The notes beneath the pieces are model-generated. The model was not told the origin of the DNA and searched no databases. It saw only the letters and a list, made by a program, of their open reading frames with translations. This document shows, piece by piece, positions 4,788 to 16,756 of a stretch of DNA of 64,000 nt. Both the position numbers and the translations under genes were made by a program. How positions within the stretch are numbered: position 1 is the stretch's first letter; each line of letters starts with the position of its first letter. The DNA is from Dyella silvae (GTDB lineage Bacteria; Pseudomonadota; Gammaproteobacteria; Xanthomonadales; Rhodanobacteraceae), in NCBI RefSeq assembly GCF_026421305.1, contig NZ_JAPJBQ010000008.1:62001-126000 (forward strand), written 5' to 3'.

Positions 4788-4802
4788 CGTTGTTTCCTTA
4801 TG

Positions 4803-4847
4803 GGAACAATACGTTCGATTTTACCCGACTTATCGCGAGATTGTTCC
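4803..4847. promoter_or_regulatory. Candidate LysR operator between the LysR gene and azoR
   Basis: GGAACAAT (4803-4810) and ATTGTTCC (4840-4847) form a perfect inverted repeat, with 29 bases between arms, in the divergent promoter region. Site type and position fit a LysR-type regulator; binding is inferred. Confidence 0.5.
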
Positions 4848-4902
4848 ATGGATAACCTATCTCTGTCGCCGGAACACCCCGGCCCGTCACTGAGGAATTG
4901 CC

Positions 4903-5487
4903 ATGAAACTGTTGCATCTCGACGCCAGCGCCCTGGGTAGCCACTCGGTTTCGCGCGGGCTTACTGCTGCCATCGTAGCCGAACTGACCACCAACAACCC
5001 CGGTACAGAGGTCATCTACCACGATCTGGCCGCCAATCCGCTCCCCCACTGGACCCCGGTGGCCGATGCCAGCGACCCGGTTGCGGTGCAGGGTAGCCAG
5101 ATGATCGAGGAGTTCCTTGCCGCCGATGTGCTGGTGATTGGCGCCCCGATGTACAACTTCGGTATTCCCAGCCAGCTGAAGGCCTGGATCGACCGGGTCG
5201 CCGTCGCGGGCAAGTCGTTCCGCTATACCGCCAACGGCCCCGAAGGTCTGGCCGGCGGCAAGCGCGTGATTATCGTGTCCTCCCGCGGTGGTGTGTACAG
5301 CCACGGTAGCCCGGCCCAGCCGATGGACTTCCAGGAAACCTACCTGCGTGCGGTGTTCGGCTTCCTTGGTGTCACCGACATCGAGATCGTCCGCGCCGAA
5401 GGCGTGAACCTCGGCGATGACGCCAAGGTGGCATCGCTGAAGTCGGCGCAGGCATCGATCGGTGACGTGACCCGCAAGGCCGCGTAA
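4903..5487 (+). CDS. azoR: FMN-dependent NADH:quinone oxidoreductase / azoreductase AzoR
   Basis: 194 residues with the flavodoxin-like fold of AzoR/AcpD. It opens MKLLHLDASALGSHSVSR, which binds the FMN phosphate, and contains IGAPMYNFGIPSQLKAWIDR and SSRGGVYS, all hallmarks of the family. It makes two-electron reductions of quinones and azo compounds in the cytoplasm using NADH, so it protects against quinone stress. GAGG lies just before the ATG. It is likely controlled by the divergent LysR protein. Product assignment is firm; the physiological substrate is inferred. Confidence 0.94.
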   Translation: MKLLHLDASALGSHSVSRGLTAAIVAELTTNNPGTEVIYHDLAANPLPHWTPVADASDPVAVQGSQMIEEFLAADVLVIGAPMYNFGIPSQLKAWIDRVAVAGKSFRYTANGPEGLAGGKRVIIVSSRGGVYSHGSPAQPMDFQETYLRAVFGFLGVTDIEIVRAEGVNLGDDAKVASLKSAQASIGDVTRKAA

Positions 5488-5512
5488 ACCACACCGGTAC
5501 CACCGTCCCCCG

Positions 5513-5542
5513 CAACCGCCGCGCGTCACTGCGCGGCGGTTG
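5513..5542 (+). terminator. Hairpin terminator after azoR
   Basis: A perfect 12-bp stem (CAACCGCCGCGC/GCGCGGCGGTTG) with a six-base loop lies 25 bases after the azoR stop and overlaps the last codons of the convergent amidohydrolase gene. Only a weak T tract follows. Confidence 0.6.
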
Positions 5543-7309: not shown

Positions 7310-7546
7310 TTACGCAGCCTTCTCCAGCGAGGCCGCCACGCGCACGTATTGCGCCAGCCGGATGGAGGAGCCCATCCCCGGCATTTCCACACACACCGGA
7401 CGCCCCGACCGGAGATGTTCATCACGCGCTACTTCACGCGCCAGCTTGATGGCTGCACCAAGACGCAGATTACTAAATAGCGAAAAACCCGAGCGGCATA
7501 CACACCACAGCCCGTCGGAAGACTGCCTGAGTGAATAGGTGACCAT
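7310..7546 (-). CDS. Small hypothetical protein, 78 residues
   Basis: A short protein of unknown function beginning MVTYSLRQSSDGLWCVCRSG and rich in Arg, Leu and Ala, with no signal peptide or membrane segment. A TTG two codons earlier could also start it, but the ATG at 7546 is preceded by AGGG at good distance. The layout resembles DUF2188-like mini-proteins (a short beta hairpin followed by a helix), but that is a weak impression. A CGTAGGAATACG palindrome lies 135 bases upstream, matching sites before the neighbouring signalling genes, so it is probably part of the same regulon. Confidence 0.6.
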   Translation of the reverse strand: MVTYSLRQSSDGLWCVCRSGFSLFSNLRLGAAIKLAREVARDEHLRSGRPVCVEMPGMGSSIRLAQYVRVAASLEKAA

Positions 7547-7680
7547 GATCAAACCCTGTGAAAAGAGAGCCCTGCCACCACTGGATCGAGTAGGTGAAAA
7601 CCCACTGACCTGTCCGTTCCGGACTGATCAAGAGTGCACTCGTTCTGCGGACGAGCATATCGGCCCACTGCGCTGCATTA

Positions 7681-7692
7681 CGTAGGAATACG
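7681..7692. promoter_or_regulatory. CGTA-N4-TACG site 1, upstream of the small ORF
   Basis: CGTAGGAATACG, with 4-bp palindromic arms and a four-base centre. It lies 135 bases upstream of the 78-residue ORF and matches five other intergenic sites in this region. Confidence 0.45.
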
Positions 7693-7740
7693 ACTACATC
7701 GCTCACATGACGGGAACGCGGAGCATCAATTCCCGGCCGC

Positions 7741-7758
7741 TGTTTCATCCATGAAACA
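7741..7758. promoter_or_regulatory. Perfect palindrome TGTTTCAT-CC-ATGAAACA
   Basis: Arms 7741-7748 and 7751-7758 are exact inverse complements. It sits between the lone receiver gene and the small ORF. It could be an operator or the stem of a weak terminator; there is no T run to favour the latter. Confidence 0.35.
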
Positions 7759-7772
7759 CCACGACGTGCGAC

Positions 7773-7789
7773 GTGCGCGCAGCGCGCAC
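7773..7789 (-). terminator. GC-rich hairpin after the lone receiver gene
   Basis: GTGCGC/GCGCAC stem with a five-base loop, starting about ten bases past the receiver stop codon. No U run follows, so termination is only probable. Confidence 0.35.
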
Positions 7790-7799
7790 GAAACGAGCC

Positions 7800-8222
7800 T
7801 CAAAACCGTGGCCCGTTGACGAGCAAATCGGCCCGTCCCAGCGTCGCCGATACGAAGTACCGGTTGTCCAGCACGCTTCTTATCGCATCAGGCAGCTCAT
7901 CCCCCGCCGCCGCCTTGAGGACATAGCCCTTACCGATGGCAAGCGCGGCCTTTGCCAGTGACGGATCATCATGCACGGTCATAAATACGATCGGCAGCTC
8001 CGGCCGCTCCGCCAGCAACTCACGTGCCGCTTGCATGCCATCCATGCCGGGCATGCTGATATCCGTCACCACTGCGTCCGGCCGCAATCGCCGGACAGCC
8101 TTGACCAACGCCTCGCCGTGAGAAACGACCGCAAGCACATCGAACTCCTCGCCCAGCAACGCCCGTATCTGCTCTGCAACGGGCGGATGGTCTTCGGCCA
8201 GTACGATGGTGGCGCGTGTCAC
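7800..8222 (-). CDS. Stand-alone response-regulator receiver domain
   Basis: 140 residues that contain one CheY-like receiver and no output domain. The acidic pair in LAEDHPPV, the phospho-acceptor Asp in VVTDISMPGMDG, the Thr in FMTVHDDP and the Lys in YVLKAAAG are all present, so it should be phosphorylatable. It starts at GTG. It is clearly similar to the receivers of the two LuxR-type regulators nearby (shared pattern GEALxxAVRRLRPD), which implies local duplication followed by loss of the DNA-binding part. It could be a phosphate sink or an adaptor. Its promoter region carries a CTAGGTAAAACTACGG site. Confidence 0.88.
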   Translation of the reverse strand: MTRATIVLAEDHPPVAEQIRALLGEEFDVLAVVSHGEALVKAVRRLRPDAVVTDISMPGMDGMQAARELLAERPELPIVFMTVHDDPSLAKAALAIGKGYVLKAAAGDELPDAIRSVLDNRYFVSATLGRADLLVNGPRF

Positions 8223-8310
8223 GAGAGTCCTCTAATCCATGGATGACAGCTCAAACGAGAGCATCGTCCAATGCGAGAACTCGCGCCACCGAAAGAGAAC
8301 CGACTTGTGG

Positions 8311-8326
8311 CTAGGTAAAACTACGG
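8311..8326. promoter_or_regulatory. CGTA-N4-TACG-type site 2, upstream of the receiver gene
   Basis: CTAGGTAAAACTACGG with GTA 8315-8317 and TAC 8322-8324, about 90 bases upstream of the lone receiver start. Confidence 0.45.
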
Positions 8327-8364
8327 CTCCTGCGCGCCCTGAGGCAGTACGGGCCCCTGCGCCG

Positions 8365-9015
8365 CTAGAACAGCAGGCCCAGATCTTCCGCCCGGCGCAC
8401 GAGTTCCAGGGTGGAGTGCACACCCAGCACCTGCATCATGGTGTATTTGTGCGCCTCAACGGTCCGCACGGACAGACCCAGCTGTAAAGCGATCTGCTTC
8501 GAACGCAGCCCCTCGCCCACCAGCCTGAGCACCTGCAGCTGCTTGGACGTGAGATTGCGCATGTCGGTCAACTGGCCGCTGATGTAACGCGCGCCCAATA
8601 CCGGCGTGACATACGTGCCGCCGGTCATCACCTGTTGGGCAGCGTTGCGCAGATCTTCGCCCGCCGAGCTTTTGAGAATGTAGCCACTGGCGCCCGCACG
8701 CAACGCAGCCACCGCGAGCGCTGGCTCCATATGCATGGTGAGGAAGACGAAGGGCGTTTGAATGCCTTCCTGCCGCAAGCGCTTGAGTGCGTCCATGCCG
8801 TTGCAGCGGGGCATGTTGATATCTGCCACCACCATATCCGGCTTGAGGCGGCGCACGGCATCGATCAACGCTTCGCCATCAGCAACGATATCCAGCAGAT
8901 CGAAATCGTCGTCGAGAATGTGCTGCACACCTTCGGCGACCATCCGGTGATCATCGGCGATGATCAGGCGTGGCCTTGGAGCTGCATGGAGGTTCCTAGC
9001 GGAATGCATATGCAT
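8365..9015 (-). CDS. LuxR/NarL-family response regulator
   Basis: 216 residues. The receiver has DDHRMVAEG, the phospho-acceptor in VVADINMPRCNG, and the switch Thr and Lys in FLTMHMEP and YILKSSAGED. The C-terminal NarL-type HTH is present (LTSKQLQVLRLVGEGLRSKQIALQLGLSVRTVEAHK). The start at 9015 lies inside the end of the histidine kinase gene, an overlap of 52 bases. No internal Met except residue 3 would shorten this, so the two genes are physically interlocked and probably translationally coupled. The cognate kinase is almost certainly the overlapping gene. Likely DNA targets are the GTA-N4-TAC sites. Confidence 0.93.
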   Translation of the reverse strand: MHMHSARNLHAAPRPRLIIADDHRMVAEGVQHILDDDFDLLDIVADGEALIDAVRRLKPDMVVADINMPRCNGMDALKRLRQEGIQTPFVFLTMHMEPALAVAALRAGASGYILKSSAGEDLRNAAQQVMTGGTYVTPVLGARYISGQLTDMRNLTSKQLQVLRLVGEGLRSKQIALQLGLSVRTVEAHKYTMMQVLGVHSTLELVRRAEDLGLLF

Positions 9016-10553
9016 AACTGAGTCCCTTTCCCCGGTGTGGAGTGCAATTGATAACTTCCGCCGAGCAACTTGGCGCGCTCATCAATACTCATGAGGCCAA
9101 GCCCTCGACGCCCGCGCTCTGCTGTCTCGAACCCCCTGCCGTCGTCCGCCACGCTGAGGTCAACGTGATCGGCACCAATATCCAGTGCTACTTCGATGTG
9201 TTGTGCCGCCGCGTGACGTATCGCGTTGTTCAACGCCTCCTGTGCCACCCGGTACAGGCAAAGCGAAACGTCCTCGGACAAATCCGTGGCCTGAGGTGAC
9301 ACCCTCAAATCGATCTCCGGCCCGTTTCGATGCCGCTGCGACTGGCAAAGCCCGGCCAGCGCTGCGGTCAGACCCGTCTGGCTGAGCATGCTCGGATGCA
9401 GGTCATGCGATATGCGGCGAACGTCTTCTGACAGTCCCATCAAGTCGTTCTGCAACAAGCTGACGTCCTGCCGATTGCTGTCACCGAGTTTGCGGCGCAA
9501 AGCGCTGAGCCGGATCGACGCAACGGCGAGGCGCTGATTGATATCGTCGTGCAGGTCGCGCGCGATGCGGGCACGCTCCTGCTCCTGAGCCACGATGAGG
9601 CGCCCCGCCAGTTCGCGCACTTCAACGCTGGAAGCCGACAGCGCACGCATCGTGGTTCTGCGCTGCTCGACGAGCGCCGCGAGAAACAGCGAGGCTGTGG
9701 CCATGCCAAGCATCCACAGCTGTACACCGACGGTGGTGAATCGAGGATCCTGCTGTGTGAAAGGCCCCTTCCCGTCCAGACTCAACTGGATAGCCATCGT
9801 CCCCAGAACAAGACTGAGCAGGCACGTTCCCGGCATCTGAGCGCGCATGGCGACGAAAATCGCCAGCGGCACAGGGGCGAGCAGCAATAGCGGCCGGGCG
9901 GTGGGCAAAGCGCCCAGCTCACGCCATGCCAGCCAGATCACGGCGAGCACGATGCCCATACCCAGCAGGACGTTCCACGCGGGCAATGCATCACGCCGCA
10001 AGGACGACCCCGGATTGGCAAGACTCATGATGACCGGCGGCAGCAGCGCGTAGCCCAGCGCATCGGCCAATGCGACGTGCCACCAGTCTTGCGAGAGCCA
10101 TACGGGCATCGACTGCATGTTGGCCAACAGGGCTATCAAGCCTGCGGCGACCAACGGCAACAGCACCACCGCGATCACCAGAAAATCGATCAATCGCCGG
10201 AAATCATCAATCGCCTTACCCTTCCCGGCGCGAACCAGCGCAAACGCAGCCAGATGGATCAACAAGAGATCAGCGAGGCCGAGAATCACCATGCCTGCGA
10301 GGGGTAACTTCAGCAAGGCACAGGACGCGAGCATCCCCAGGAACCAGCCCACGTCATAGAAGAGCCAGTAGCGTTGCGCGTCGCTGATGAGTGCCCCGAG
10401 CAGCAAGGGACCAGCCAGCCAGACCATCTGCGCATCGCCTTCACGATCCCAGAGCACCAGCGACAGCCATTGCGCCGCCACGGCGATGGCAAACATCCCG
10501 CCTGCCCGCCCAAGGGCGGGTAGACCAGCAACTGGCGCTTTTCCAGCCATCAT
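8964..10553 (-). CDS. MASE1-type membrane sensor histidine kinase (HisKA_3/NarX-like)
   Basis: 529 residues. The N-terminal 300 residues are hydrophobic, with about eight membrane segments in the pattern of a MASE1 sensor. Next come a dimerisation/phospho-acceptor helix with RDLHDDINQRLA (the His is the phosphorylation site) and a GHKL ATPase domain with NNAIRHA, DDGRGF and GLGLMSI. This is the NarX/DegS subclass, which phosphorylates LuxR-type regulators. The stimulus is unknown; MASE1 domains are thought to sense signals in or near the membrane. Two ATG codons stand side by side at the start, with AAGGGG directly before them. It is divergent from the second regulator at 11129. Confidence 0.92.
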   Translation of the reverse strand: MMAGKAPVAGLPALGRAGGMFAIAVAAQWLSLVLWDREGDAQMVWLAGPLLLGALISDAQRYWLFYDVGWFLGMLASCALLKLPLAGMVILGLADLLLIHLAAFALVRAGKGKAIDDFRRLIDFLVIAVVLLPLVAAGLIALLANMQSMPVWLSQDWWHVALADALGYALLPPVIMSLANPGSSLRRDALPAWNVLLGMGIVLAVIWLAWRELGALPTARPLLLLAPVPLAIFVAMRAQMPGTCLLSLVLGTMAIQLSLDGKGPFTQQDPRFTTVGVQLWMLGMATASLFLAALVEQRRTTMRALSASSVEVRELAGRLIVAQEQERARIARDLHDDINQRLAVASIRLSALRRKLGDSNRQDVSLLQNDLMGLSEDVRRISHDLHPSMLSQTGLTAALAGLCQSQRHRNGPEIDLRVSPQATDLSEDVSLCLYRVAQEALNNAIRHAAAQHIEVALDIGADHVDLSVADDGRGFETAERGRRGLGLMSIDERAKLLGGSYQLHSTPGKGTQLCICIPLGTSMQLQGHA

Positions 10554-10681
10554 CCCCTTGCTCCATGCATACAGCGTCCCTCACCCAGAATCGCGTCCCG
10601 CGGAGCAATCGGACTCCCGCCCGTCGCGGAGAGCCACATCGCATTTGCTCACGGGGCCCGTCATATCTTCGTGATGATTTG

Positions 10682-10693
10682 CGTAGTTCTACG
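10682..10693. promoter_or_regulatory. CGTA-N4-TACG site 3
   Basis: CGTAGTTCTACG, with arms CGTAG and CTACG around TT. It lies 129 bases upstream of the kinase start codon. Confidence 0.5.
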
Positions 10694-10816
10694 GAGAGGC
10701 CACAAACCGCCTCGGATCGGCACGGAGCAGACCCTGTGCTCAGCTCCACACAAACTCTTCACGTCGCACCTTGAAGCGAGACGGTTTTGTCTGGCAGCTG
10801 ACACAGAGATCGCTTG

Positions 10817-10826
10817 GTAATTTTAC
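10817..10826. promoter_or_regulatory. GTA-N4-TAC site 4
   Basis: GTAATTTTAC, same spacing and A/T centre as the other sites, in the kinase/regulator divergent region. Confidence 0.4.
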
Positions 10827-11128
10827 TGAGCTTGTTTGAGTGAAAGTTCGCTTACTTCGCACGCCCTAACGGACCAAGCTGACGATTGGCGGGAGAGCAG
10901 CCGTTGCGGGGACCGACAGGCCATGAGATTCCATTTCGCGCGAAGACGGATCACCGCACCCGGCGCATCTTCCGGCATACCTCGCTGCGGGCCAGGCCGT
11001 GCGCAAACATCAAGATCACCGCGAGTACGCTTGCGATGTCGGGCGCATGCCATGCCCATCTCTTTCGGCACGTGCGCAGTACCGGCATCCGTTAGCGGAC
11101 CCTTCCCTTTCTGCCTCTGTGCCAACGC

Positions 11129-11824
11129 ATGAAGACACGCGCGCAATCACCTGGAAACAGCACGCGTAAGCTGCGGGTGCTGCTGGCAGATGAGCATCGC
11201 TGCGTGGCCGAGGGACTGGCGGGCTTGTTGGCCCGGCGAACCAATTCGGTTCGCCTCGTGCATGACGGCGAAGCGCTGATAGACGCCGTGCTCTCAGATG
11301 AAGTCGACCTGGTGATCACCGACATTGCCATGCCGCCTTTCAGCGCGCTGCAGGCACTACGCCGGTTGCGCCGCCAGGGCAGCGGCATACCCATACTCGT
11401 TCTTTCCACGCACAGCGAACCACTGATCGTGCGAGAAGCCATGCAGGCCGGCGCCAACGGCTATGTACTGAAGCAGTCGCCCAGCAGCGAACTCTTTACG
11501 GCGATTGCCGAAGTCGCCGCGGGCAATCAGTTCATCAGCCCTCAACTCATGGCGTCGTTACTGCAGGCTCCCGATGCCGCGCACCGGCTCACGCGCCGCC
11601 AGCGCGAGGTGATCGAGTGCATGGCCAAGGGCAAACGCACCAGCGAGATCGCCGCGGAACTGGGCATTTCCGTACGCACCGTAGAAAGTCACCGCCAGGC
11701 GTTGCTGGATCTGCTGGGCGTGCACAGCGGCGTAGCGCTGATTCGCGAGGCCGAACGACTAGGACTCATACCCCTGACACCGTATGACGCGGCATTGGCG
11801 ACGGAGGACGAAATACCACCCTGA
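11129..11824 (+). CDS. Second LuxR/NarL-family response regulator
   Basis: 231 residues, with a receiver (LLADEHRCVAEG, phospho-acceptor in LVITDIAMPP, Lys in YVLKQSPS) and a NarL-type HTH (LTRRQREVIECMAKGKRTSEIAAELGISVRTVESH). It is related to the regulator at 8365-9015 but diverged in the middle of the receiver (NSVRLVHDGEALIDAVLSDE). No kinase adjoins it in its own orientation, so it may share the MASE1 kinase across the divergent promoter. It could bind the same palindromes and give antagonistic or additive control. A short envelope-gene cluster follows. Confidence 0.92.
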   Translation: MKTRAQSPGNSTRKLRVLLADEHRCVAEGLAGLLARRTNSVRLVHDGEALIDAVLSDEVDLVITDIAMPPFSALQALRRLRRQGSGIPILVLSTHSEPLIVREAMQAGANGYVLKQSPSSELFTAIAEVAAGNQFISPQLMASLLQAPDAAHRLTRRQREVIECMAKGKRTSEIAAELGISVRTVESHRQALLDLLGVHSGVALIREAERLGLIPLTPYDAALATEDEIPP

Positions 11825-11890
11825 TGACCTACAGACCTTCGCGCCTTCGCCATGTTCCATTTGACGACCACAACAAGGAGTAGTCACGTC

Positions 11891-12469
11891 ATGAAACCAT
11901 TGCGGTACGTTCTTTTGGCCCTGTCACTCACCCTCGCCGCGTGCTCGACCTTCAGCGTCAGCAATCAATGGAAAGACCCTAACTGGCCGGGCCCGCCGGC
12001 ATCCAACGTATTGGTGCTCGGCATCACCAAGAGCGACACCTACCGGCGTGTTTTTGAAGACACGTTCGCCCAGCAACTGCAGGCCGCCGGCGTTCACGCC
12101 GAGCAGAGCTATAACCAGATTCCCGCCGGGGAAAGCTCGGAAAAGGTCGGCACTGTCGTCAAGGCAACCGGTGCCGACGTGATTCTCAGCACCCGCGTAC
12201 AGCGAGTCGAACAGAAGCTCAACGTCACGCCCAGCGGCCCGGTCGGCCCAGGCTTTTACGGTTGGTGGGGTGGTGCCTGGGCGTCCACGCCGGATGTCAC
12301 GCAGTACAACGAAGTCACGCTGGAAACCACCGTTTGGGACGCCCGGTCGCAGAAGGTGATCTGGTCGGTGACGACGCAGAGTGTCGGCACCAACAACCTC
12401 CCCAAGGCGGTTCAGGATCTGGCGCAAACCATCATTCCCAAACTCAAGACAGACGGCATCATCCGCTGA
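11891..12469 (+). CDS. Lipoprotein, DUF4136-like
   Basis: 192 residues with a lipoprotein signal: MKPLRYVLLALSLTLAAC has an LAAC lipobox with Cys18 as the lipidation site. The mature part (CSTFSVSNQWKDPNWPG) has the Trp-Lys-Asp opening of DUF4136-type proteins. A WWGG segment and several Thr/Val-rich strands suggest a small beta domain at the membrane. Function is unknown in the family. AAGGAG stands ten bases before the chosen ATG; the frame extends 13 codons upstream without a better start. It follows the second regulator by 66 bases and may be cotranscribed with it. Confidence 0.8.
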   Translation: MKPLRYVLLALSLTLAACSTFSVSNQWKDPNWPGPPASNVLVLGITKSDTYRRVFEDTFAQQLQAAGVHAEQSYNQIPAGESSEKVGTVVKATGADVILSTRVQRVEQKLNVTPSGPVGPGFYGWWGGAWASTPDVTQYNEVTLETTVWDARSQKVIWSVTTQSVGTNNLPKAVQDLAQTIIPKLKTDGIIR

Positions 12470-12541
12470 CTACGCGACTGTGACGATGGAGATGGTTCCA
12501 TCGTCATCGGTTCCCTCTAACGATTGTTACGGAGCATCGCC

Positions 12542-13000
12542 ATGAATCGGTCCATCGTAAAAATCGCCGCTCTATCCTGTGTCGTGCTTGCCTTCAACGC
12601 GACTGCGCAGCAGTTGCCCGTCGCCTATCCGGCCAACGGGCAGAGCCAAAGCCAGCAGGAGGCAGACAAGAGCGCATGCATGTCATGGGCGCAAAGCAAT
12701 GCACCCACGCAAGCGGCTCCCCCGCCGCAGACCGGTCCCGCCGTCGGTGGCGGACAACGCGCAGGCGGAGCCGTGCGCGGTGCGGCTGCCGGTGCGGTGA
12801 TTGGCGGGGTGGCCAACGATGATGCGGGTCACGGCGCCGCCGTTGGCGCCGCGGCTGGCGTCGTCGCAGGTGGCGTGCGCGCCCGTCAGCAACGGCGTGA
12901 GCAGAATGAAGCGTCAGCCGCCACGCAAAACCAGAACGTGGCCTCCATGAATCAGGCCTATAGCGCTTGCATGAAGGGCAAGGGCTACACGGTCGGCTGA
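12542..13000 (+). CDS. Secreted glycine-zipper protein
   Basis: 152 residues. A signal peptide (MNRSIVKIAALSCVVLAFNATA) is followed by a Gln/Pro-rich stretch with one Cys. Then comes a glycine zipper (AGGAVRGAAAGAVIGG and GAAVGAAAGVVAGG), as in the 17-kDa surface-antigen/YMGG family. The end is charged and contains a second Cys (AYSACMKGKGY). Such proteins insert glycine-rich helices into or across the outer membrane. GGAG precedes the ATG. A strong hairpin follows the gene. The layout suggests a partner of the lipoprotein 72 bases upstream. Confidence 0.82.
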   Translation: MNRSIVKIAALSCVVLAFNATAQQLPVAYPANGQSQSQQEADKSACMSWAQSNAPTQAAPPPQTGPAVGGGQRAGGAVRGAAAGAVIGGVANDDAGHGAAVGAAAGVVAGGVRARQQRREQNEASAATQNQNVASMNQAYSACMKGKGYTVG

Positions 13001-13032
13001 AGCCAGGCGATGACCTACTGCGAGATCGGCGC

Positions 13033-13056
13033 GAGTGAGCAGCCCCCTGCTCACTC
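13033..13056 (+). terminator. Hairpin after the glycine-zipper gene
   Basis: GAGTGAGCAG/CTGCTCACTC, a perfect 10-bp stem with a CCCC loop, 32 bases after the stop codon. It has no T run, as is common in GC-rich genomes. Confidence 0.55.
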
Positions 13057-13147
13057 AGCGCCAGGCGCGGCCCACCTGGATGTCATACGCGCTCTGACCT
13101 TGGCTCCATGCCCAGTCGATACCCGCATACCGGCCCAGGACGCGCCA
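13055..13147 (-). pseudogene. Possible remnant of an outer-membrane beta-barrel gene (C-terminal 30 residues)
   Basis: Read on the minus strand, this stretch ends in RYAGIDWAWSQGQSAYDI followed by QVGRAWR and a stop. That is the alternating aromatic/polar pattern of the last two strands of an outer-membrane barrel. The frame closes upstream with a TGA at 13148-13150, so only a fragment remains. The match is by pattern only and could be chance. Confidence 0.25.
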
Positions 13148-13221
13148 TCACCTGAGCTTCCGCAAGACGCGGAAGCCGTTTCGGACTGATCGGGGTTTGT
13201 CAGCGATGCGCGAGACGCGCT

Positions 13222-13244
13222 TGCCCCATGGTCGCCATGGGGCA
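13222..13244. terminator. Hairpin between convergent genes
   Basis: TGCCCCATGG/CCATGGGGCA around TCG, a perfect 10-bp stem about 80 bases past the end of the DUF2950 gene. It may stop transcription from the minus-strand operon. Confidence 0.45.
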
Positions 13245-13321
13245 TCGCGCAATTACTCGGCAGCAGCCTTGCTATATCTACTTCACGGCGCAGCCCGAGG
13301 AGCGCGCGCCGTGCCGATGAA

Positions 13322-14221
13322 TCACTGCTCGGACTTGACCTCGTTCCAGCTGCTATCGGGATCGAACGACTTCATCGACTCCGCGACCTTCGCGCCGTTC
13401 TTGCCAAGATCCTTTTCGAAGATCTCGCCATCGTGGCTCACCATGAAGCTCATCACACCTGACTCACCGTATTGCGCCGGCCAGGCAATGAGCGCGAAGC
13501 CACTGGTCATGCGGTTGCCCACGATGTAGTTGTAGGCGCCGCCCGGTGCCGAAGGTCCCTGCGCGGTGAGGATGCGATAGTGGTAGCCATGGAAATCCGA
13601 CCCATGGGCCTCTTCGCCTGCAAACCGCTCGCCCAGCGGACTGGGTGGCTCGTTGCCCGTCACCGGCCAGTACAAACCATCTCGCTTGCCGGGACTGCTT
13701 CTTAGCTTCTGGGCGTACTGCAACACGTGGTCATCATTGCGATCCTCGGCGGCGTAATCACGCTGTGCGTCGTAATACGCAAGCATCGCTTGCTGGGCCG
13801 CCAATTCGTTCGCGCCGATGCGGCGTTCGCGTATTTCTTCTGCGCCCTTCTTCACATCAAAGTGCCAGCCACCGTTGCCCTGTACCAGCGGCAAGGGCAA
13901 GACCCAATTTTCCGATCCGACATTAAGATGCGACACGCCATCGGCCGCTTCGATCCGGTGGCTTTCGTCATATCGCTTGAGGAATAACTCCACATCTTCC
14001 CGATCGATACCTTCGGTGGGGATGTAATCCTTCCAATTGGCGCCCAGCACCTTCGCGAGCACGGTCTTGTCGTTGTCGCGCAGCGCCTGCACGAAGGCTG
14101 CGGAAGCCGCGTCGGCCGTCGGATAACTGGCCTCCTGCGCAAGCGCCATGGAAGAAACCGTGCAGCCCGACCACAACGTCAGGGCCAGCACGAGGCGAAG
14201 TGTCCACGGATGACGATTCAT
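13322..14221 (-). CDS. DUF2950 secreted protein
   Basis: 299 residues of the DUF2950 family. An N-terminal signal peptide (MNRHPWTLRLVLALTLWSGC, cleavage near SMALAQ) directs it to the periplasm. The body carries the family's features: an ASYPTADAASAAFVQALRDN opening, a WVLPLPLVQGNGGWHFD core, and a C-terminal GGAYNYIVGNRMTSGFALIAWP segment. Its molecular role is not established. The ATG starts two bases after the stop of the DUF3300 gene, so the two form one operon, an association known from other proteobacteria. Conserved co-occurrence suggests a joint envelope function. Confidence 0.85.
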   Translation of the reverse strand: MNRHPWTLRLVLALTLWSGCTVSSMALAQEASYPTADAASAAFVQALRDNDKTVLAKVLGANWKDYIPTEGIDREDVELFLKRYDESHRIEAADGVSHLNVGSENWVLPLPLVQGNGGWHFDVKKGAEEIRERRIGANELAAQQAMLAYYDAQRDYAAEDRNDDHVLQYAQKLRSSPGKRDGLYWPVTGNEPPSPLGERFAGEEAHGSDFHGYHYRILTAQGPSAPGGAYNYIVGNRMTSGFALIAWPAQYGESGVMSFMVSHDGEIFEKDLGKNGAKVAESMKSFDPDSSWNEVKSEQ

Positions 14222-14223
14222 GA

Positions 14224-15672
14224 TCAGGCTCCTATCCGACGACGACCGCCACCGCCACCGCCCCGACTGGGCGCCGGGCGCGACGTCTGTCGACCTGCGC
14301 CACCACCGGCACCGCGGGACTGGGACATCGAACGTTGACTGCTCTGTCCGCGATTCATTTGCGAACGCGACGAGCCGGGTGACTGCGAGCCACTGAAGGC
14401 GTTATTGCGGGCACTGCTTCCACCCTGCTGCCGCCCGCCGAAATCACCACCCGCGCCCTGTCGATTGCCGCCACCCAAATCACCCGCCCCGCCCTGGCGA
14501 TTGCCGCCACCGACGTTGCCGCGATCGGCGCCACCACCCACACCCTGGCCACCGCGATCGCCACCGGAAGGACGATTGAGCTGTGAGCCAGTCTCGCCAG
14601 CGCCGCGACGAGCTGCCGCCGACGAACCGTTGTTGGTGCTGCGATCAAAGCTCTGCAACGAACGCTGGCGGTTCGCGTCCGCCTGCGAGTCGCGGCCACG
14701 GAATGCTTCGCGCTGCTGCGAACCGCCGCGCCCCTGGTCAAAGCGCTGACGACTGCCCTGGTCGCGGTACGGCGTTCCTCGTCGGTTGTCGGGATTGTGG
14801 TTCCAGCGTTGGTTGCCGTTGCCGTTACCGTTACCGGATATACGGTTATTGACGTTGTTGACGCTGTTGTAGCGATTGACGTTGACGTTCACGTCACCAT
14901 GGCCCCAGTTGAAGCCGCCCCACAACGCGCCGGTGATGGCGATGCCCACGCCGAAGGCCAGGCCCGTGGCGAGGGCCTGCCCCGGATAGTAACCATACGG
15001 CGGCGGCCAGTACGTCGGCGGATAAGCCGGGTAAGGCCAGGAACCGTAGACCACCGTCGGGTTGTACTGCGGCACGTACACCACTTCCGGGTTCGCCGGT
15101 TCGATCTGAATGATGGTGGGGCCTTCCGTCGATCCCGGCGGCGCCGCCTGTTCGATGACCTTCTGCTGTTCGGTCGTCTTGAGATTGCCCGCTGACTTCG
15201 CCTGCGTGCGCAGACGCTGCACTGACGCCATCACGTCGTCCGGCTGGGCAAGGAAGGCATCACCCACGTTCTGCACCCAATCCGGATGCTGCTTCATTTG
15301 CGCCAACACCTGAGGAAAGGCCACCAACGATTGCACGCTGGGGTCCCATGGCTTGGTGTTGACCTGCTTGACCGCATCGTCACCCTGAGCTTTGGGATTG
15401 GCCGCTGACCACGCGGCCGCCTCAGCGACGTCGCTGGGGTACGTCGTGGCCATGAATATCTGGGAGAGCAGTGCGTCGGGATAGAGCGCGACCGGCGCCA
15501 GCATCTGGTCGAGTTGTTGGTTGTTGTAGATCTTTTGACTCTGCCCCGCTGGCTGCGCCTGTGGCTGCGCCTGGCTCGCCTGTGCGTGTGCCGTGTCAGG
15601 TAGCACACATGGCAGCAACGCAAAACACCATAGGGACGTCCACAGTAATCCGTAACGCGTCATCGTCTTCAT
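14224..15672 (-). CDS. DUF3300 secreted protein with Gly/Gln/Asn-rich tail
   Basis: 482 residues. The start at 15672 gives a proper signal peptide (MKTMTRYGLLWTSLWCFALL, processed after AHA). The DUF3300 domain spans roughly residues 45-260: LDQMLAPVALYPDALLSQIF, then a PEVVYVPQYNPTVVYG strand. A hydrophobic glycine stretch (ALATGLAFGVGIAITGALWGG) follows. The last 200 residues are low-complexity, with NGNGN, RGGSQQR and GGGNRQGG repeats. The function is unknown. The frame extends 28 codons upstream without a signal peptide, so that start is rejected. Two palindromic sites in the divergent promoter suggest control by the nearby two-component system. Confidence 0.85.
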   Translation of the reverse strand: MKTMTRYGLLWTSLWCFALLPCVLPDTAHAQASQAQPQAQPAGQSQKIYNNQQLDQMLAPVALYPDALLSQIFMATTYPSDVAEAAAWSAANPKAQGDDAVKQVNTKPWDPSVQSLVAFPQVLAQMKQHPDWVQNVGDAFLAQPDDVMASVQRLRTQAKSAGNLKTTEQQKVIEQAAPPGSTEGPTIIQIEPANPEVVYVPQYNPTVVYGSWPYPAYPPTYWPPPYGYYPGQALATGLAFGVGIAITGALWGGFNWGHGDVNVNVNRYNSVNNVNNRISGNGNGNGNQRWNHNPDNRRGTPYRDQGSRQRFDQGRGGSQQREAFRGRDSQADANRQRSLQSFDRSTNNGSSAAARRGAGETGSQLNRPSGGDRGGQGVGGGADRGNVGGGNRQGGAGDLGGGNRQGAGGDFGGRQQGGSSARNNAFSGSQSPGSSRSQMNRGQSSQRSMSQSRGAGGGAGRQTSRPAPSRGGGGGGRRRIGA

Positions 15673-15749
15673 GGTGCCGCTCCCATGCCGCCTTTGCGCT
15701 TGCAACAGCTTGACTCTTCCGGGGCGCCGTTGACCACTGCATTTATGCG

Positions 15750-15772
15750 GTAGCAATGCTACGTAAAACTAC
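15750..15772. promoter_or_regulatory. GTA-N4-TAC site 5 fused to a 13-bp palindrome
   Basis: GTAGCA-A-TGCTAC (15750-15762) is directly followed by GTAAAACTAC (15763-15772), in the promoter region shared by the DUF3300 operon and the outer-membrane barrel gene. Confidence 0.5.
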
Positions 15773-15810
15773 TTAGCTCTTCTGCGTAATGTCACCCGCC
15801 GCCGGCGGTC

Positions 15811-15822
15811 CGTAAAATTACG
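15811..15822. promoter_or_regulatory. CGTA-N4-TACG site 6
   Basis: CGTAAAATTACG with 4-bp arms, 49 bases from site 5 and about 86 bases upstream of the barrel start codon. Additional half sites (GCGTAAT, TACGTAAT) flank it. Confidence 0.5.
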
Positions 15823-15907
15823 CAGCAGTGGGTACGTAATAGTTCGCTGTGTGCCGCCCGGGAAACGATCCACCATAAGCGCACCACTTCGAACGGGACT
15901 CTTCGCC

Positions 15908-16756
15908 ATGCGCCGTGTCGTCGCTCTGCATCCCACGATCTTGATGACGGCCCTCGCCGTGGCACTCGCCGCCGGGCTGGCCGCTCCCGCCGCACACGCC
16001 GAAACCCCGGATTTCTGGGACGGCAACTGGCACGGCAACATCCAGCCCTATGTCTGGTTGCCCGGCATCAGCGCAAAAACGCGCTACCAGCTGCCCAACA
16101 ACGGCGGCGAAGTGGAGTCAAAGACGGACAAAAACATTTTCTCCTATCTGAGCGGCGCCTTCATGCTCGATGGCACCGTTCGCAAGGACAACTGGGGCAT
16201 GTATGGCGACCTCGACTGGGTGAAGTTCAGCAACGAAGAGGGGCGTTTCTCCGCCATCGGCGGAGAGCGCTTTGGCGGCAGTGCCAACCTGAATACGCGA
16301 TGGGGCATGAAGGGCGGCATGTTGAACCTGGCTGGCCTGTACACCCTGACGCACTCTGGCCAGGGCTTCGCCGACCTGCTGTTCGGCGTGCGTTACCTGT
16401 GGGTCAAGGGCAACCTCGACTGGAATTTCTCGTTCAACGGCAACGCAGGCAACGTCAATATTGCCAACAGTGGTCATCTGCACAATCAGATGCACGTCAC
16501 CGACGCCATCGTTGGCGTACGTGGCAACTGGTCGCCGTTCGACAATAAGCGTTGGTTCTTCCCCTATTACCTGGACTTTGGCGCGGGCAGTGGCGACACG
16601 ACCTACAAGCTCAGTGCCGGCGTCGCCTATGGCTACAGCTGGGGCGACATCTCACTGAGTTACCGCGATATCCATTACAGCCAGAACAGCAGTGAGAAGT
16701 TCATCAAGGATCTCAACCTGAGCGGCCCGACCTTCAGCGTCAACTGGAACTTCTGA
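15908..16756 (+). CDS. Outer-membrane beta-barrel protein, unknown function
   Basis: 282 residues from the ATG at 15908. An Arg-containing signal peptide ends at AAHAETPD. The remainder alternates polar and aromatic residues throughout (NIQPYVWLPG, YGDLDWVKF, GVRYLWVKGNLDWNFSF, ISLSYRDIHYS) and ends in FSVNWNF, the terminal aromatic needed for BAM recognition. The predicted barrel has roughly 10-12 strands. It resembles uncharacterised outer-membrane proteins annotated only as such. Divergent from the DUF3300 operon, it is probably controlled from the same palindromes, and it is followed 35 bases later by a polytopic membrane protein. Confidence 0.8.
   Translation: MRRVVALHPTILMTALAVALAAGLAAPAAHAETPDFWDGNWHGNIQPYVWLPGISAKTRYQLPNNGGEVESKTDKNIFSYLSGAFMLDGTVRKDNWGMYGDLDWVKFSNEEGRFSAIGGERFGGSANLNTRWGMKGGMLNLAGLYTLTHSGQGFADLLFGVRYLWVKGNLDWNFSFNGNAGNVNIANSGHLHNQMHVTDAIVGVRGNWSPFDNKRWFFPYYLDFGAGSGDTTYKLSAGVAYGYSWGDISLSYRDIHYSQNSSEKFIKDLNLSGPTFSVNWNF

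Follow-up and report, generated by a model that had tools for sequence, protein, structure and literature searches.

Known NarL/FixJ systems and the Dyella locus

The described two-component systems closest to the one treated here are UhpB-UhpA, the FixL-FixJ-FixT system of alphaproteobacteria and the dormancy regulon of DevR (DosR). UhpB-UhpA is a MASE1 kinase with a NarL-type regulator, and FixL is an oxygen-sensing PAS-haem kinase. The locus compared with them lies in a 64,000-nucleotide stretch of the Dyella silvae genome (RefSeq assembly GCF_026421305.1, contig NZ_JAPJBQ010000008.1, positions 62,001 to 126,000; hereafter the window), where a MASE1 kinase, two NarL/FixJ-type response regulators (RR2 and RR3) and a lone receiver are encoded near a DUF3300-DUF2950 gene pair, with copies of a short palindrome, GTA-N4-TAC, in their promoters. 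An earlier note on this DNA had proposed, from six such copies, that the kinase system controls a local regulon. That model is supported; it was too small in extent, as the regulon reaches far outside the locus, and it missed a second, degenerate box (box 2) and a -10-like element. The finding is real and larger than proposed. The regulon is new, of the known NarL/FixJ two-component kind, and no description of such a regulon was found in the open-access literature.

The Dyella MASE1-HisKA_3-HATPase_c kinase with its GerE-type regulators resembles UhpB-UhpA, from which the system differs in having many scattered sites, not one transporter; no UhpC-like sensor was found among the 17 window proteins scanned. 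Like FixL-FixJ-FixT, it combines a histidine kinase, a NarL/FixJ regulator and a single-domain receiver. It is not FixLJ, however, because the N-terminus of the kinase is MASE1 and no PAS domain was matched in it at E 0.001 (Pfam). It also differs in its second NarL-type regulator, its symmetric palindrome and its candidate targets, which are envelope or secreted proteins where they recur. FixT, according to an extract of PMC7078487, is a single-domain receiver that is induced by FixLJ and inhibits FixL, and so provides a precedent for the lone receiver. The 16-bp FixJ site reported in a section of PMC4999443, TAAGTAATTTCCCTTA, is two positions off TAAGTAATTTTACTTA, which fits the Dyella consensus, and the same section gives two regions protected by FixJ at fixK, -69/-44 and -57/-31. 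The helix-turn-helix of RR2 matches the FixJ DNA-binding domain 1x3u at E 1.4e-5, and six other proteins match it better. DevR differs from the Dyella system in motif, kinase, lineage and target genes. It is alike in being a NarL-family regulator that has one strong, primary site and one weak, secondary site. As described in part of PMC3029386, its proximal site overlaps the -35, and DevR binds cooperatively and regulates itself, which the Dyella regulator may do too.

The palindrome and its conservation

In an unbiased scan of 960 trinucleotide dyads (64 × 15 spacers) over 16 loci, GTA-N4-TAC had by far the top score, with 85 matches outside the footprints of the window genes against a mean of 5.9 for the same dyad at other spacers ("outside" here also covers genes that were not among the queries). 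Equal motif density in coding DNA, which the earlier note had named as a refutation, was not seen: only 22 matches fell inside footprints, several of them receiver-promoter sites mislabelled by footprint extension. CTA-N12-TAG also stands out in the scan, so that the site is an 18-bp palindrome, CTAnGTARWWYTACnTAG, with GTA-N4-TAC as its core.

Each of the six copies first reported (7682, 8315, 10683, 10817, 15763 and 15812) was found at its coordinate. The window holds nine matches, against 2.0 expected from dinucleotide-preserving shuffles, none of 100 of which reached nine. The chance rate assumed before, once per 4 kb, was about 8-fold too high (the shuffles give about 2.0 per 64 kb, or once per ~32 kb), and the enrichment is therefore stronger than first claimed. 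Three matches are additional, at 14989, 50440 and 55524; that at 14989 was rejected as a regulatory site, being inside DUF3300 coding DNA and having a different centre. The genes of the locus are as follows, with domains from Pfam.

7310-7546, minus: small gene (78 aa), the preferred reading over an overlapping open reading frame (ORF) at 7473-7748; no match in the Pfam scan
7800..8222, minus: lone receiver, a single-domain response regulator and possible feedback element; Response_reg only
8365..9015, minus: RR2, NarL/FixJ-type response regulator, the best candidate for binding the motif; Response_reg and GerE
8964..10553, minus: MASE1-HisKA_3-HATPase_c sensor kinase, its ORF overlapping RR2
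11129..11824, plus: RR3, second NarL/FixJ-type response regulator; Response_reg and GerE
11891..12469, plus: DUF4136 protein, downstream of RR3 (domain on a longer ORF; start from the gene caller)
12542..13000, plus: glycine-zipper protein, downstream of RR3 (domain on a longer ORF; start from the gene caller)
13322..14221, minus: DUF2950 protein
14224..15672, minus: DUF3300 protein (domain on a longer ORF; start from the gene caller)
15908..16756, plus: the protein called a barrel in the earlier note, a putative fold (gene caller); no match in the Pfam scan

In RR2 and RR3, both domains are above the cut-off. The kinase translation carries DLHDDINQ and NNAIRH, which we take to be its H-box and N-box. 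Elsewhere in the window, ORFs 4798-5529 (minus) and 4903-5487 (plus) overlap, each on its own strand; of the two, the plus ORF is favoured by the codon-based caller, and the Pfam scan gave no match for the minus one.

Conservation upstream of orthologues had been set as a test of the motif, and the same promoters carry sites in every Dyella locus that spans the receiver, kinase/RR3 and DUF3300/barrel gaps. Searching the 20 genus genomes for DUF2950 gave matches in 16, and the neighbourhood was taken from 15 besides the window (L018 and L027 end at contig ends); the counts refer to 17 stretches from 16 genomes, G017 contributing a second contig in addition to the window and the 15 loci. A site is present in the receiver/RR2 gap in all 15 spanning stretches. 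The kinase/RR3 gap, which is 3 kb long in L031 and L032, has at least two sites in 16 of 16. In 13 of 15 stretches the DUF3300/barrel gap contains two or more, and in the remaining 2 a single one. When the 15 DUF3300/barrel gaps were aligned, box 1 (the palindrome), box 2 and the -10-like element appeared as conserved islands in poorly conserved surroundings, the mean column conservation being 0.37 with mostly-gap columns scored zero.

The motif was rejected as a general property of DUF3300-DUF2950. In a control sample of DUF3300 loci (80 fetched of 154 confirmed), none of 69 non-Dyella DUF3300 genes had GTA-N4-TAC within 500 bp upstream and none of the 70 non-Dyella loci had a kinase match, and all nine named Dyella DUF3300 loci had an A/T-centred site. 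Separately, a second, diverged DUF3300-DUF2950 pair (35-41% identity) adjoins the main locus at L024:4554-6853 and L028:2365-4582, and an uncultured Rhodanobacteraceae contig without DUF3300 (L042) has a site near its DUF4136 gene. In the RR3 orthologue at L031:6718-7359, Glu replaces the phospho-acceptor Asp (VVSEIGLP), which suggests a phosphorylation-independent variant.

Composite promoters and sites across the genome

Around 200 sites, 399 sides were searched for box 2 with the pattern GTRRWWYT[GTA]C, up to two mismatches being tolerated. It was found at offset 23 in 84 sides and at offset 24 in 31, where an offset has about 5 on average; a lesser peak of 25 sides, at offset 50, fits the second box 1 of paired sites. 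The composite, in which box 1 is followed 23-24 bp downstream by the degenerate box 2 (GTRRWWYTKCGCT), is present in 110 of the 200 sites. Box 1 is symmetric over its 18 bp and box 2 asymmetric, its right half being changed to TKCGCT. A textbook TAnnnT -10 at a fixed distance from box 1 was not found, and a -10-like element emerged only on alignment by box 2: [CGT]AnnnT follows 35 bp further in 84 of 115 cases, box 2 not having been chosen for it. This element, SAnnMT, begins mostly with C or G rather than T, usually lies 35 bp beyond box 2 and is accompanied by a poor -35. Gene starts within 350 bp are faced by box 2 in 102 of 112 cases; for the side opposite, the figure is 57 of 101. Both boxes are established by these data, as are their conservation and fixed spacing. 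If the hexamer occupies -12 to -7, the centre of box 2 would fall near -42 and that of box 1 near -65, a placement relative to the predicted start that implies the class II activator layout of NarL/FixJ regulators. The elements at the window promoters are as follows.

8311..8328, minus: box 1, lone-receiver promoter (CTAGGTAAAACTACggct on the plus strand); all 15 stretches spanning the gap have a site
8288..8300, minus: box 2, lone-receiver promoter (GTTCTCTTTCGGT), 3 mismatches of 13
8260..8265, minus: -10-like GATGCT, lone-receiver promoter
10679..10696, minus: box 1, kinase promoter, with no good box 2 (4 mismatches of 13)
10813..10830, plus: box 1, RR3 promoter
10840..10852, plus: box 2, RR3 promoter (GTGAAAGTTCGCT)
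10875..10880, plus: -10-like CAAGCT, RR3 promoter
15759..15776, minus: box 1, DUF3300-DUF2950 promoter (CTACGTAAAACTACTTAG on the plus strand)
15736..15748, minus: box 2, DUF3300 promoter (GCATAAATGCAGT), 3 mismatches of 13, a conserved island
15707..15712, minus: -10-like CAAGCT, DUF3300 promoter
15808..15825, plus: box 1, barrel-protein promoter
15836..15848, plus: box 2, barrel-protein promoter (GTAATAGTTCGCT)
15871..15876, plus: -10-like CACCAT, barrel-protein promoter
7678..7695, no strand: weak box-1-type site (GTAGGAATAC), ~135 bp upstream of the small gene 7310-7546

The full composite is thus present at RR3 and the barrel protein; at DUF3300 and at the lone receiver the composite is looser. 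The start predicted for RR3 would give its transcript a leader of about 240 bases. The site at 7682 is the weakest of the six and a doubtful member of the regulon: it is present in 6 of 11 stretches spanning its slot, and box 2 is absent, with 6 to 8 of the 13 positions mismatched whichever side is taken. The earlier statement that all six sites are intergenic holds if the small gene is 7310-7546 and fails if it is the overlapping ORF 7473-7748, which contains this site; the statement that the centres are A/T fails for this same site, whose centre is GGAA.

The A/T-centred core GTARWWYTAC occurs 13 times in the 4.45-Mb genome of the window, against 33 for the reversed control, and five of the 13 are within 7.5 kb at the locus. 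In this genome all 10 A/T-centred sites outside the locus are intergenic; the site C15:414312 (CGTAACGTTACG) was dropped from the count, its centre not being A/T. CTANGTANWWNTAC is present in 17 of 20 genus genomes. Genus-wide, 105 of 109 sites outside the locus are intergenic, where 19% of the DNA is non-coding by the gene caller. The stretches around non-locus matches held 116 qualifying sites (112 intergenic), reduced to 109 by excluding L147-L150, which had been selected by a different pattern, as well as L279 and L293, which are parts of the locus; an atypical match (G003:C1:506573) was also left out, and an intergenic L144 site beside a kinase paralogue was uncounted.

Genes on either side of a site within 700 bp were taken as candidate targets, bystanders included and a gene with two sites counting twice; their start codons, from a home-made gene caller, are approximate, and Pfam names come from one or two representatives per cluster. 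Among the 166 entries the largest neighbour clusters were Phenol_MetA_deg-type proteins (17), DUF1254/DUF1214 (16), a short-chain dehydrogenase (11) and an AI-2E permease (10), followed by a large secreted protein (8) and a periplasmic protein (7), both judged by eye, an MscS-type channel (6), a DcaP-type porin and a sulfate permease (5 each), a sulfatase and an oxidoreductase (4 each) and an OmpA-like protein (3). Single entries made up 39 of the 62 clusters. The recurring neighbours are mostly envelope or secreted-protein genes.

Two side observations concern these sites and the kinase. A conserved variant palindrome with centre CTTG/CAAG lies 101-105 bp upstream of an oxidoreductase with FAD-/NAD-binding domains (L231:2211, L240:2248, L264:2178 and L278:2225), and an AhpC-like gene, judged by eye, is on its other flank. 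Second kinase paralogues are encoded elsewhere in two Dyella genomes (L144:8065-9618, 56%; L145:8070-9596, 52%), with no RR2-like match beside either; at L144 a box 1 follows just past the 3' end of the kinase and precedes the next gene.

The candidate regulator and the proposed regulon

Of 147 family genomes, 20 gave a kinase relative (E up to 1e-30), which is full-length or nearly so in 16 (in G009, in two pieces). CTANGTARWWYTAC is present in 14 of these 16 genomes and in 2 of the remaining 131 (Fisher p 1e-15, with relatedness ignored). In three near-complete genomes of Dyella that lack RR2 (G010, G016 and G018), there is no CTANGTANWWNTAC and also no DUF2950. Across the order, the composite pattern with at most two mismatches is present in 20 of 398 genomes, from 4 of 98 genera, and no control matches were seen. 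An RR2 relative was found in all 20, and a kinase in 16; the other four (G741, G761, G798 and G319) were outside the kinase search. G319, which belongs to another family of the order, has two composites (C1:281395-281430 and C1:2264706-2264741) and two RR2 relatives (56% and 50%), and four tested congeners had neither RR2 at E 1e-35 nor a composite; its composites may mark a transfer or an older origin of the regulon. A class-wide spread was rejected: among 369 genomes, eight besides that of the window had one single-mismatch match each, and the reversed control gave comparable scatter. Of the three inspected (L304, L307 and L312), only L312, from G319, looks like a real site. The distribution of the sites tracks the kinase/RR2 pair across genera and into one other family.

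A plausible mechanism can be proposed on the basis of these sequence comparisons. A membrane stimulus would act on the MASE1-HisKA_3 kinase, which would phosphorylate RR2 and possibly RR3. A regulator dimer would bind the strong box 1, with its centre near -65, and at many promoters a second dimer would be recruited to the weaker box 2, next to the poor -35; both dimers would then activate RNA polymerase at the SAnnMT element by class II activation. The candidate targets are the signalling genes themselves (autoregulation), DUF3300-DUF2950 and the barrel protein and, elsewhere in the genome, Phenol_MetA_deg proteins, DUF1254/DUF1214, the MscS-type channel, the AI-2E permease and others. Negative feedback may come, as with FixT, from the lone receiver, which is among the candidate targets too. 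We give a probability of about 0.72 to this reading, in which phosphorylated RR2, possibly together with RR3, activates the regulon through the box 1/box 2 operators with the lone receiver as feedback.

Several observations weigh against it. A good box 2 is missing at the kinase promoter and at 90 of the 200 sites overall, and 6 of the 10 sites outside the locus in the Dyella silvae genome have none (at least 5 mismatches of 13 on both sides; the other 4 have at most 3). Some neighbours of the sites, such as the short-chain dehydrogenase, look cytosolic and may be bystanders. Of the 16 kinase-positive genomes, 11 are Dyella; such genomes do not count as independent, so that the p-values overstate the association. 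G051, G143 and G708 have an RR2 relative (60-62%; G051 and G143 also the kinase) and no match to the searched patterns. Conversely, G004 has seven matches and an RR3 relative (51%), and no RR2 or DUF2950 was found in this genome, which is 86% complete. The recognition helices of RR2 and RR3 are near-identical, with the common core SVRTVE-H.

Some of these points would fit RR3 rather than RR2 as the DNA-binding activator, RR2 being an accessory regulator. G004 and the shared helix core are consistent with this, as are G051 and G143, in which no RR3 better than the RR2 cross-match accompanies the lack of pattern matches. Such an exchange of roles is nevertheless unlikely, though it deserves some weight: in G037, where no RR3 better than the RR2 cross-match (44%) was found, there are eight pattern matches and two composites, and the promoters of the kinase and of the receiver have sites; the two composites of G319 go with two RR2 relatives (RR3 was not searched there); and the incompleteness of G004 lessens the force of its missing RR2. 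The composites of G037, without a clear RR3, also count against a joint reading by RR2 and RR3, with a homodimer on box 1 and a heterodimer or other regulator on box 2. This arrangement seems improbable; if true, each promoter would combine two phosphorylation inputs as an AND-gate does, and the lone receiver would serve as a drain. RR2 is favoured as the binder, with room left for both.

A binder encoded elsewhere, for which the kinase locus is merely one target, would agree with a set of sites much larger than the locus and with presence/absence data that are correlational. We hold this to be rather improbable too, since the occurrence of the sites follows that of the kinase/RR2 pair across genera and in a further family, and the motif resembles a FixJ-type box, both locus regulators being of that family. 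A protein bound at box 2, next to the -35 region, could also block polymerase, and the regulator might then mainly repress by promoter occupancy. The boxes lie upstream of the predicted -10 and start and not over them, however, and a mostly C/G-first -10-like element with a poor -35 is what is expected of activator-dependent promoters, which makes repression quite improbable. A 6-base dyad is weak evidence alone, and the six matches could in principle have been a chance cluster or local repeat. There is next to no chance of that, as it is ruled out by the shuffles, the dyad test and the conservation of the promoters, and the intergenic bias and fixed composite spacing speak against it as well.

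The activation by RR2 favoured here would bring scattered genes together. DUF3300, DUF2950 and DUF1254/DUF1214 are Pfam families of unknown function that in Dyella now fall within one candidate regulon. Part of the text of PMC4653623 singles out DUF3300 and DUF2950, which are induced in rhizobial transcriptomes, as particularly compelling candidates for a role in plant interaction. With a kinase, an operator and a promoter layout defined, there is a direct genetic handle on these families, and the list of candidate co-regulated genes is a basis for inferring a shared task, as it allows the scattered genes to be treated together. Conserved across genera, the composite promoter also lends itself to comparative tests of the way in which NarL/FixJ activators use a strong site together with a weak one.

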